The notes under the pieces are model-generated. The model did no database searches. It was not told where the DNA came from and saw only the letters and a list, made by a program, of their open reading frames with translations. Position numbers and translations under genes: made by a program. Positions 19,029-64,000 of a DNA stretch of 64,000 nt are shown in pieces; position 1 is the stretch's first letter, and each line of letters opens with the position of its first letter. Source of the DNA: Chryseobacterium arthrosphaerae. GTDB taxonomy: Bacteria > Bacteroidota > Bacteroidia > Flavobacteriales > Weeksellaceae. Location of the stretch: NCBI RefSeq assembly GCF_001684965.1, contig NZ_MAYG01000001.1, positions 806,001 through 870,000 on the forward strand, in the 5' to 3' direction.

Positions 19029-19113
19029 CGGAGAGTGAGGGATTCGAACCCCCGGACCTGTTACAGTCAACAGTTTTCAAGACTGCCGCAATCGACCACT
19101 CTGCCAACTCTCC
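19029..19113 (-). tRNA. tRNA-Ser(UGA)
   Basis: The minus strand folds into an 85-nt type II tRNA: acceptor stem GGAGAGT/ACTCTCC with discriminator G, T-arm loop GGTTCGAATCC, anticodon loop CTTGAAA with anticodon TGA, and a long variable arm typical of serine tRNA. CCA is not encoded. The ORF spanning it on the plus strand is spurious. Confidence 0.95.
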
Positions 19114-22860: not shown

Positions 22861-22940
22861 CACAAAATTAAAATCTTTTATTAATGCTGCTGAGTGTTCG
22901 TAAAAGAAACCGTTCTTTATCTACTTCATCAAACAGGAGA

Positions 22941-23100
22941 GGTTTTACTTAAGGTAAATTAATAGGGAATCATGTGAAAATCATGAGCTGTCGCGCAACT
23001 GTAAGCAGCATGCCAAAGGTTTCCGTCCAAAGATATCCACTGCGAAAAGCGGGAAGGATGACGGAAAACCGCTGCAAGCCAGGAGACCTGCCTTTACTGA
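22941..23100 (+). ncRNA. Cobalamin (AdoCbl-class) riboswitch
   Basis: The leader has the hallmarks of a cobalamin riboswitch in the right order: AATAGGGAA, the segment CTGTCGCGCAACTGTAA near 22988-23004, CCACTGCGAAAAGCGGGAAGG-like P4/P6 sequence near 23037-23056, and the B12 box GCAAGCCAGGAGACCTGCC at 23074-23092. It sits in front of a B12-independent methionine synthase, so bound cobalamin is expected to shut the gene off. No clear terminator separates it from metE, so translational control or a subtle attenuator is possible. Confidence 0.92.
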
Positions 23101-23279
23101 ATTGACAGTGCTTTCGCGGTCTGAAGCTTTGGGTCATACAGATGATATATCGGATGCATTTTCTTTTTGTAAGAATCTGCAGCATTCAGTATATTATTGT
23201 TTTCCATAGATTTCCGCAGAAGTACTACGAAGCATTTCAAAGAACTTTATCGTTAAGTTTAATTAAAAAGTTTAAAAAA

Positions 23280-35916: not shown

Positions 35917-36126
35917 ATGAAACCAAAATTCAAAAGAGGGGACAAGGTAAGCTGGAATTCCGAAGCAGGAAGGGTTTCCGGAACCATTATTAAAATCCAT
36001 ACCAGAGATTTTGATTATAAAGGCTATACTCATCATGCGAGTGAAGACAGTCCGCAATATGAAATCAAAAGTGATAAATCAGCTCATATCGCTGTCCATA
36101 AAGAATCTGCCCTTACGAAGATTTAA
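35917..36126 (+). CDS. Hypervirulence-associated (DUF2945) TUDOR-like protein
   Basis: 69 residues. FKRGDKVSWNSEAGRVSGTI and IHTRDFDYKGYTHHASEDSP match DUF2945, a small TUDOR-like beta-barrel domain found in bacteria and fungi, once named hypervirulence-associated. The last ~20 codons (IKSDKSAHIAVHKESALTKI) recur in the tandem repeats downstream with different residues. Single gene at the end of the plus-strand block. Confidence 0.85.
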   Translation: MKPKFKRGDKVSWNSEAGRVSGTIIKIHTRDFDYKGYTHHASEDSPQYEIKSDKSAHIAVHKESALTKI

Positions 36127-37099
36127 AAGAAAGATGTTTGCAGTATCTTTTTTAACGGAGTGTTCGCAAAGATTTTAAAAAAAAGATTTTATTCGTTCGC
36201 AAAGGCGTTCTACTCAGCAAACGTGTAGTAAGTACTTAGCTGAATGAAATGCCCTTGCGAACGAAAAATATTCCGTCTGTTTTGTTCGGTCCTTTGCGAT
36301 TCCTGGCGTTAAAAATTAAAAAAATCAAAAGTGATAAATCAGATTATATTGTTGCCCCTAAAGAATCTGTTCTTACGAAGATTTAAAATAAAGATGTTTG
36401 CAGTATCTTTTTTAACGGAGTGTTCGCAAAGATTTTAAAAAAAAAAGATTTTATTCGTTCGCAAAGGCGTTCTACTCAGCAAACGTGTAGTAAGTACTTA
36501 GCTGAATGAAATGCCCTTGCGAACGAACAATATTCAGTCTGTTTTGTTCGGTCCTTTGCGATTCGTGGCGTTAAAAATTTTAAATCAGTTCATATCGCTG
36601 CCCATAAAGAATCTGCCCTTACGAAGATTTAAATGTAAGATGTTTGCAATATCTTTTTTAACGGAGTGTTCACAACGATTTTAAAAAAAAAGATTTTATT
36701 CGTTCGCAAAGGCGTTCTACTCAGCAAACGTGTAGTACGTACTTAGCTGAATGAAATGCCCTTGCGAACGAAAAATATTCCGTCTGTTTTGTTCGGCCCT
36801 TTGCGATTCCTGGCGTTAAAAATTAAAAAAATCAAAAGTGATAAATCAGATTATATTGTTGCCCATAAAAAATCTGCCTTTATGAAGATTTAAAATAAAG
36901 ATGTTTGCAATATCTCTTTTAACGGGGCGTTCGCAAAGATTTTAAAAAAAAAGATTTTATTCGTTCGCAAAGGCGTTCTACTCAGCAAATGTGTAGTAAG
37001 TACTTAGCTGAATGAAATGCCCTTGCGAACGAAAAATATTCCGTTTGTTCTGTAGGACCTTTGCGATTCCTGGCGTTAAAAATTAAAAAAATCAAAAAC
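36064..37099. repeat. Four tandem ~260-bp repeats holding a gene's 3' end and a large hairpin
   Basis: The unit starts at the last codons of the DUF2945 gene. Copies begin near 36064, 36324, about 36575 (shortened by ~14 bp) and 36831, and a partial start follows at 37091. Each full unit carries about 20 codons of the gene tail ending in TAA, then a noncoding element with A-rich tracts and an imperfect hairpin. The hairpin arms are TTCGTTCGCAAAGGC and GCCCTTGCGAACGAA, at 36192/36251, 36454/36513, 36699/36758 and 36960/37019. Identity between copies is high, so the array is young or homogenised. Confidence 0.92.
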
Positions 37100-62389: not shown

Positions 62390-63475
62390 ATGGAAAATTT
62401 TATAGTATCTGCAAGAAAATATCGTCCTCAGGAGTTTGATACGGTTGTAGGACAATCCCATATTACGGATACTTTAGAACATGCAATTGAAGAAAGCCAG
62501 TTAGCTCAGGCATTGCTTTTTTGCGGACCTCGTGGTGTGGGTAAAACTACTTGTGCCAGAATCCTGGCAAGAAAGATCAATGAAAAAGATGGCTCGGTTT
62601 CAGAAGACGGCTTTGCTTACAATATCTATGAGCTGGATGCTGCATCCAATAACTCTGTAGATGATATCAGGGAACTGATAGACCAGGTACGCTTTGCCCC
62701 TCAGGTTGGTAAATACAAGGTATATATCATAGACGAGGTGCATATGTTGTCTTCTGCCGCTTTCAATGCATTCCTTAAGACGCTTGAGGAACCGCCGGCT
62801 CATGCCATCTTCATTCTGGCAACTACGGAAAAGCATAAAATCATTCCTACGATTTTATCCCGATGCCAGATCTACGATTTTAAAAGAATCGTCATTGAAG
62901 ACATCCAGGCACATCTTAGAAATATTGCCCAGAAAGAAAACATCCAGTACGAAGATGATGCATTGTACCTGATCGCCCAAAAGGCAGACGGGGCATTAAG
63001 AGATGCACTTTCCATTTTCGACAGGCTTTCTACATTTTCCCAAAAAAATATCACCCTGGCAAAAGCTGCCGAAGTTCTGAATATTCTGGATTATGACCAA
63101 TATCTGAATATTGTGGACCTTGCCAAGGAAAATAAAATTCCTGAAGTGCTTTCCGCTTTTAATGATATTGTCAAGAAAGGATTTGATCCTCATATATTCA
63201 TTGCCGGATTGGGAAATCATTTCAGAGATCTGATGATGGCACAGAATACCTCTACCATTGATCTGATCGAAGTGGGGGAGAAGACCAAATCCAGATTTGT
63301 GGAGCAGGGGCAGAAATGGGCCGCCCAACAGCTGATCGATGGTATTGAGATCTGCAACCATGCAGACATTAATTATAAAAACTCAAAAAATCCAAGACTT
63401 ACGGTTGAAATTGCACTGATGCAGCTGGCTTCCCTGACAGCTAATTCAGGTGATACTAAAAAAAAAAGTTCCTGA
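62390..63475 (+). CDS. dnaX: DNA polymerase III gamma/tau subunit, gamma-like product
   Basis: 361 residues to a TGA at 63473. The clamp-loader ATPase has Walker A GPRGVGKTT at 46-54, YELDAASNNSVDDIRELID, Walker B VYIIDEVHML and the sensor LSRCQIYDF. Between Walker A and DAASNN there are no zinc-finger cysteines (only CAR), unlike E. coli. The frame ends just after a run of ten A bases, and the -1 frame stays open through the tau C-terminal part. So this frame would make gamma, and tau would need a slip. Confidence 0.95.
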   Translation: MENFIVSARKYRPQEFDTVVGQSHITDTLEHAIEESQLAQALLFCGPRGVGKTTCARILARKINEKDGSVSEDGFAYNIYELDAASNNSVDDIRELIDQVRFAPQVGKYKVYIIDEVHMLSSAAFNAFLKTLEEPPAHAIFILATTEKHKIIPTILSRCQIYDFKRIVIEDIQAHLRNIAQKENIQYEDDALYLIAQKADGALRDALSIFDRLSTFSQKNITLAKAAEVLNILDYDQYLNIVDLAKENKIPEVLSAFNDIVKKGFDPHIFIAGLGNHFRDLMMAQNTSTIDLIEVGEKTKSRFVEQGQKWAAQQLIDGIEICNHADINYKNSKNPRLTVEIALMQLASLTANSGDTKKKSS

Positions 63476-63509
63476 TACTGGCTCCGTTTCTCAGTGAGAA
63501 GCAGGAACT
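63458..63509 (+). promoter_or_regulatory. Slippery A10 tract and downstream hairpin of dnaX
   Basis: A 10-base A run (63458-63467) ends the gamma frame. AGTTCCTG (63467-63474) pairs with CAGGAACT (63502-63509), with an inner TTCTC/GAGAA stem (63488-63500). The in-frame TGA at 63473 lies inside the stem. This is the layout of known dnaX recoding sites: A AAA AAG plus hairpin in E. coli, A9 transcriptional slippage in Thermus. Confidence 0.75.
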
Positions 63510-64000
63510 GAAAATGCCTGAAAAAGTTCAGGAGAAAAAAGAAGAGGTTAAGGCAGAACAGCCTGCTGCCCTTGAAAAAGTGCAGGAAACTTCAGTAACG
63601 AAAACAAACAAGCCATTATCAAGACCGGGAATTTCTTCCGGTTTCAGCATCAATTCTTTTCTGACGAAGGAAGAAAAGGTAGAAACAGCAGAAAATATCG
63701 CTGTGAAAGCCGAAAACCTGCCCCAGAACCATTTTACAGATACAGATCTGCAGATGGAATGGAAAATCATGCTCAAACAGCTGCAGGTAAAAAACAATTT
63801 TGTTTTCAATGCGGTAAAAACCTTCAAACTGGTAAAAGCAGACGAACATAAGATCAGGGTTTTATTCCCTTCCGACTCTGCAAAAGTGGAATTTGACAAA
63901 ATAAGCGGAGAATTTTTCAATCATTTCAGAACAAAAGTTCAGAACCACAGTATTGAGATAGAATACGAGAGAGACGTTGAAAATCTGAAGATTGAGGTTG
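63466..64000 (+). CDS. dnaX: tau-specific C-terminal part of dnaX in the -1 frame (cut by window end)
   Basis: From AAG at 63466 the -1 frame is open to the end of the window and reads KFLILAPFLSEKQELK, then a Glu/Lys-rich linker and a C-terminal domain (TDTDLQMEWKIMLKQLQVKN, FNAVKTFKLVKADEHKIRVL). The second half fits the polymerase-binding part of tau. It has no good own start codon before the linker, so it is probably reached by -1 recoding from the gamma frame. Confidence 0.75.

Follow-up and report, generated by a model that had tools for sequence, protein, structure and literature searches.

A conserved run of A in dnaX of Chryseobacterium arthrosphaerae and other Bacteroidota as a candidate slippage site for gamma and tau

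The window analysed here, a stretch of 64,000 nucleotides of the Chryseobacterium arthrosphaerae genome (contig NZ_MAYG01000001.1, positions 806,001 to 870,000 of the forward strand), ends inside a dnaX gene, which is cut by the window end and has a tau part that extends beyond it. The features referred to below are the following:

62390..63475, + strand: gamma frame of dnaX, 361 aa, starting at ATG 62390 (AAA+ ATPase, lid, domain III)
63448..63454, + strand: AGGTGAT, 3 nt upstream of the run
63457..63459, + strand: TAA in the -1 frame, adjoining the run on its 5' side (sequence)
63458..63467, + strand: A10 tract, proposed slippage site (read from the sequence; conservation in the genus and in the groups)
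63460..64000, continuing to 64089 outside the window, + strand: tau tail in the -1 frame, 209 codons (profile match, codon-position differences)
63467..63509, + strand: nested hairpin, not conserved as drawn (folds, pair counts)
63473..63475, + strand: TGA, stop of the gamma frame (sequence)
63495..63497, + strand: TGA closing the +1 frame, 12 codons past the start of the run (sequence)
19029..19113, - strand: tRNA (Rfam RF00005)
22923..23109, + strand: cobalamin riboswitch (Rfam RF00174, 96.6 bits)

The last two are the only families returned by an Rfam search of the window, and neither lies at the A10 site. The gamma frame carries the Pfam domains PF13177, PF22608 and PF12169, scores 391 bits against NCBIfam TIGR02397 (cut-off 250) and matches E. 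coli gamma/tau in the PDB (E 1.1e-59). Across the run it reads ACT AAA AAA AAA AGT TCC TGA, as the first-pass annotation had stated in describing a TGA right after ten A as the end of this frame. The TAA at 63457 adjoins the run, and the -1 frame can therefore be entered only inside it. From 63460 that frame is open to the window end (540 nt), closing at window-numbered position 64089 (G000:C1:870089); the annotation had described more than 530 bp of open, tau-like sequence there, and was also right that eight or eleven A would join the two frames. The tail matches positions 421-613 of the NCBIfam profile NF011531 (E 1.3e-11) and aligns with the tails of both fused and split relatives. In comparison with 24 near relatives of equal tail length, differences in the -1 frame number 471 at first, 500 at second and 1610 at third codon positions; judged by this pattern, the tail is coding from the run onward and evolves as coding sequence. 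A Pfam search of the tail gave no match of note, and a PDB sequence search with the tail of a relative gave no match. For the tail of C. lathyri, an AlphaFold model (mean pLDDT 79.5, pTM 0.52) yielded weak matches in a fold search, the best in the PDB at E 8.3e-3, and we therefore claim no domain for the tail. By the sequence of both its parts, an N-terminal clamp-loader ATPase with lid and domain III and a tau-specific C-terminal part, the gene is identified as dnaX; the dnaX stretch gives a single match within its own genome.

Runs of at least ten A are found at 22 distinct places in this genome (both strands, 5.05 Mb; 25 pattern matches, including three overlapping pairs). Among the 20 outside the window, four fall within an open stretch of at least 190 codons, on its sense strand (L330, L331, L337, L349; 10-11 A), and are possible slippage sites themselves. 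The second A10 of the window, at 36437, falls where no frame of 60 aa is listed. Positions 36062-37097 of the window hold about four tandem copies of a unit of roughly 260 nt, with several runs of A8-A10 and mostly without a listed frame.

All 173 genomes of the genus that were searched, the own genome included, have a dnaX match, and the open frame measures 350-376 codons in the listed rows, with the exception of G051, in which the gene is broken further upstream. We read 113 of these genomes (own included) at sequence level and about 60 as open-frame lengths only. The same arrangement, with the tail in the -1 frame behind an unbroken run of 10-12 A, is present in 108 of the 113. The run has 10 A in 79 genomes, 11 in 28 and 12 in one, and is interrupted in none; the runs of 11 and 12 arise where flanking bases have been substituted, which leaves the frame unchanged. 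The first-pass annotation had proposed comparing related Chryseobacterium for a conserved A10 and hairpin: the ten A columns are invariant in all 108 in-register sequences, while the five preceding codons vary, whereas the full outer stem of the hairpin is confined to one. TGA or TAA occupies the gamma-stop site in 103 of the 108, though its variable base is the third codon position of the tau frame. The five deviating genomes may be assembly errors: in G112 (A9) and G034 (A10, one A short of its neighbours) the tail reads in +1, G118 has A9 plus a further break, and in G051 and G128 A9 is combined with a gamma frame broken earlier. G112, G034 and G118, each with one A fewer, are on contigs of 4.6-5.1 Mb. 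The -1 frame is thus the tau frame in 108 of 110 usable genomes, and being near-fixed it is not wholly free in this genus; one direction may be favoured. A metagenome-assembled genome labelled Chryseobacterium gleum (L068, CAMAXI010000020.1) has a dnaX just 60% identical to that of the window, and its species name is therefore probably wrong.

For the phylum, loci were picked by similarity to the gamma part of the window's gene: 80 named records, 127 loci from or following a sample of 392 genomes, and 59 loci from 60 further families (G566 gave no match at 1e-60). Once the genus loci were included and duplicates (L203-L206, L033) and poor or partial matches (L377, L378) removed, the set comprises 371 loci in 207 groups, a group being a genus by code, a single named record or one genome per family (L350-L408), and so not strictly a genus. 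L190, L191 and G051 (L135, L136), which have a further break or a tail below 100 codons, were kept out of the frame counts; L137-L142 are other genes, and six sampled families were not taken into the set. The longest A run at the gamma-tau junction is 9 in 29 groups, 10 in 135, 11 in 11 and 12 in one. A run of 9-12 is thus present in 176 of the 207 groups, no group has 8, and 31 have 7 or fewer; the longest A run in a control stretch of 90 codons within gamma ranges from 2 to 8 across the same groups. In other classes of the phylum the run is found in 15 of 22 loci. By commonest state, tau is fused to gamma in 120 groups, in the -1 frame in 48 and in the +1 frame in 6; 31 groups have no run and two are unclear (L351, L371). 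In all five named Flavobacterium loci of the set the gene is split. The first-pass annotation had reasoned that a single uninterrupted frame in all relatives would speak against recoding. This is not what the genus displays, and outside it many relatives do have a single fused frame, with the run still kept.

The tau frame also changes between lineages. Genus g5 contains both +1 genes (two genomes, L230 and L231) and fused ones, and genus g35 contains four fused genes and one in -1, which may be an error. A quick tree of 173 gamma domains, built before L350-L408 were added and read without weighing branch support, requires at least 20 changes of state among 151 run-bearing tips, or at least 17 among 147 when four doubtful tips are removed. 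Shuffling the labels on this tree gave 43 changes on average and 37 at least.

Among the loci without a run, three lysine codons in AAG form are not kept at the junction (60 codons examined); the four exceptions listed are the window itself and the broken G051, and a lysine peptide was set aside as the selected feature. Eight run-less loci (L062, L077, L084, L104, L273, L277, L278, L280) have a junction motif of about GGGC-NNN-GCCC, recognised by eye, with the protein pattern G-[RHL]-[SGC]-[PS]. Two Bacteroidales metagenome-assembled genomes (L099 near position 2787, L106 near 4098) also lack a junction A run; an in-frame TAG terminates their gamma, the tau tail continues behind it without a change of frame, and the sequence past the TAG is closely similar between the two. 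Readthrough is a possibility for these two. The 32-base pattern of their TAG site occurs in none of 395 genomes of the class, and two folds at the TAG were no better than shuffles.

Stops behind the run close the frames that do not lead into tau. Both non-tau frames close within 10 codons in 160 of 174 groups; in the window they do so at 63473 and 63495. For a -1 ribosomal shift, a stop in just one other frame would suffice. The frame never entered by such a shift also closes within 10 codons in 155 of 168 groups. Among the first 124 groups, and with shared ancestry ignored, this closure amounts to 91%, versus 54% at more downstream positions of these tails (0 of 5000 draws) and 48% under synonymous resampling (sd 4, maximum 62%, 0 of 500). 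Entry thus seems to occur in every frame, including the one that a -1 shift leaves unused, as would be the case with mRNAs of differing run length.

The case for recoding of dnaX at the A run is strongly supported. The first-pass annotation had considered two routes, ribosomal -1 frameshifting with a hairpin as in E. coli and transcriptional slippage as in Thermus. Homopolymer slippage is to be favoured of the two, because it is an unbroken run of 9-12 A rather than a heptamer that is conserved, in all codon phases and tau frames, and because the frame unused by -1 is also closed. We consider it probable that dnaX of the window yields both gamma and tau by slippage on A10, RNA polymerase being the most likely slipping machine. 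The polymerase would slip on the template at A10 and produce mRNAs with runs of differing length. Ribosomes would continue into the tail of tau on mRNAs with 8, 11 or 14 A; with 9, 12, 13 or the templated 10 they would meet the nearby stops and give proteins of gamma length. One added A would be expected to give a tau of 566 aa, with poly-lysine leading into FLILAPF. How widely the run lengths spread would then fix the ratio of gamma to tau, and evolution could change the tail's genomic frame with both products retained. For the phylum, we lean slightly towards a broader reading, in which, across most of the phylum, slippage on an A run of controlled length makes the products of dnaX independent of its genomic frame. 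The frame would have moved among all three states (at least 17 to 20 changes on the quick tree) without loss of the run, of the stops in the other frames or of either protein, and fused and split genes would be one genetic device. Some observations weigh against slippage: the 31 groups without a run still have dnaX, and in 20 loci the third frame closes only after more than 10 codons. The near-fixed -1 frame of the genus would also be expected of a one-directional ribosomal shift, and the window copy has a foldable hairpin and a sequence like a Shine-Dalgarno (SD) element.

These last points belong to the first alternative, programmed -1 ribosomal frameshifting on A_AAA_AAA, aided by the 3' hairpin and perhaps by AGGTGAT, with gamma as the normal product and tau made by the shift. 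The annotation had drawn a nested hairpin at the end of the A run, and its arms are indeed there: the outer ones are AGTTCCTG (63467-63474) and CAGGAACT (63502-63509), the inner ones TTCTC (63488-63492) and GAGAA (63496-63500). The stem begins at the last A and so abuts the run. Folding 58 or 52 nt gives the outer stem (-15.6 kcal/mol; z -3.16 and -2.56, respectively) without pairing between the two inner arms; over 101 nt the inner stem forms and the outer one is replaced. Conservation does not bear the structure out as drawn. Among the 108 genus loci, all eight outer pairs are found in the window's own copy only, and seven or more form in 22. The inner stem is complete, with five pairs, in 48 of these loci. 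Pairing in the 108 in-register sequences reaches 68% in the outer stem versus at most 61% in registers slid by 1-3, and 84% versus at most 74% in the inner stem; some members of the genus may therefore have a weak inner stem. It declines from near loci (30; 84% outer, 99% inner) to intermediate (31; 64% and 83%) and distant ones (47; 61% and 76%). Two-sided changes that keep a pair show no excess in these 108 sequences, with 11 cells in the outer stem versus 2-30 in slid registers and 7 versus 5-38 in the inner one. The hairpin was thus rejected as a conserved stimulator; it appears to be at most a local addition, and weak in that role. AGGTGAT, which we take to resemble an extended SD sequence, was rejected likewise, being present in just 12 of 108 genus sequences, with any of four SD-like words in 17.

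A shift of this kind has a precedent in E. coli dnaX, where the sources cited describe -1 frameshifting at A_AAA_AAG with an SD sequence and a hairpin (PMC3711429; Atkins et al., 2016), and a rule given by Antonov et al. 2013 (PMC3711429) takes a single direction of shift as pointing to ribosomal frameshifting, as would fit the uniform -1 frame of the genus. A heptamer, however, leaves the run of 9-12 and the absence of any group at 8 unexplained, and +1 genes exist, in one case in two genomes (L230, L231). With the closure of the frame that it does not use also against it, we regard this explanation as improbable. An equally improbable one is that the ribosome rather than the polymerase slides over the poly(A) and exits in any frame. 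Such sliding, reported in several frames on iterated AAA codons (PMC4363877), would likewise favour stops in every non-tau frame and disfavour AAG. The minimum given there for an E. coli cell-free system is 11 A, versus 9 or 10 in 164 of the 176 run-bearing groups, a minimum that is that of E. coli and not of this phylum.

That the tail is a separate protein with an internal start, at ATG 63514 or elsewhere, is very unlikely. A frame of 162 codons is open from this ATG, but the codon is at the same place in only 18 of 108 genus sequences, for which it was discarded as a start; the residues between the run and the ATG show conservation in the -1 frame, and in many relatives this same domain is fused to gamma. 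Finally, sequencing error, which the first-pass annotation had named as the plain alternative, can be excluded as the source of the arrangement, and a pseudogene is highly improbable: homopolymers are error-prone, and the one A missing in G112, G034 and G118 and the further gamma breaks of G051 and G128 may be of that kind, but 108 of 113 genus genomes share the arrangement, and the tail evolves as coding sequence.

Two-ORF dnaX genes were set out as a new type by Antonov et al. 2013 (PMC3711429), who, in the passages concerned, list 17 genes from 12 genera, all in -1 and nine with ten A, and suggest slippage; those passages contain no experiment on these dnaX genes. The relevant part of the review by Atkins et al. 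2016 repeats the two-ORF dnaX and mentions a possible ribosomal case in Chlorobium. Beyond these two, our literature search, which left most subscription journals outside, recognised nothing on dnaX slippage in this phylum, nor did it find in print a run with double stops common to fused and split genes and repeated frame switches.

If slippage at the run is real, most of the dnaX genes examined in the phylum, genes of replication, would contain a slippage site of tuned length, and gene finders limited to the frame of 361 aa would overlook tau in these species. Fused, -1 and +1 genes that share the run would form a natural series, a ready test of how the ratio of gamma to tau is controlled and of polymerase versus ribosome slippage.

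In Thermus thermophilus, dnaX reportedly has an A9 run with transcriptional slippage, a case said to go back to Larsen and colleagues in 2000. Slippage on nine A in Thermus dnaX is likewise given in PMC1088944 where that gene is treated. The gene of the window shares with it an unbroken, conserved run of about nine or more A, nearby stops in both non-tau frames and, as proposed here, the use of one gene for both proteins. It differs in that tau is the templated frame in T. thermophilus and gamma in the window, yet the fused layout of Thermus is also the commonest state in the 120 groups counted above. With E. coli dnaX it has in common an A-rich site, two proteins (again as proposed here) and, in the window copy, the hairpin and the SD-like sequence. 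A slippery heptamer, A_AAA_AAA, does lie within the run, although its presence does not discriminate between the two systems. In E. coli, however, tau is in frame 0 and the signal consists of heptamer, SD and hairpin, whereas here the long run is conserved and neither an upstream SD nor a 3' hairpin is. Ribosome sliding on poly(A) resembles our case in the homopolymeric A and the exit in several frames; it differs in its minimum length, and in the sections of PMC4363877 concerned no defined product is described. The closest likeness is to the two-ORF poly-A dnaX of Antonov et al. 2013, to which kind the window gene belongs: the gamma stop lies just past the run, tau is in -1 and poly-A is at the switch. 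Unlike that set, in which all genes are in -1, the run has here been traced through fused, -1 and +1 genes of the phylum, and what is new is a phylum-wide run with double stops, common to fused and split genes, together with repeated switching of the frame.
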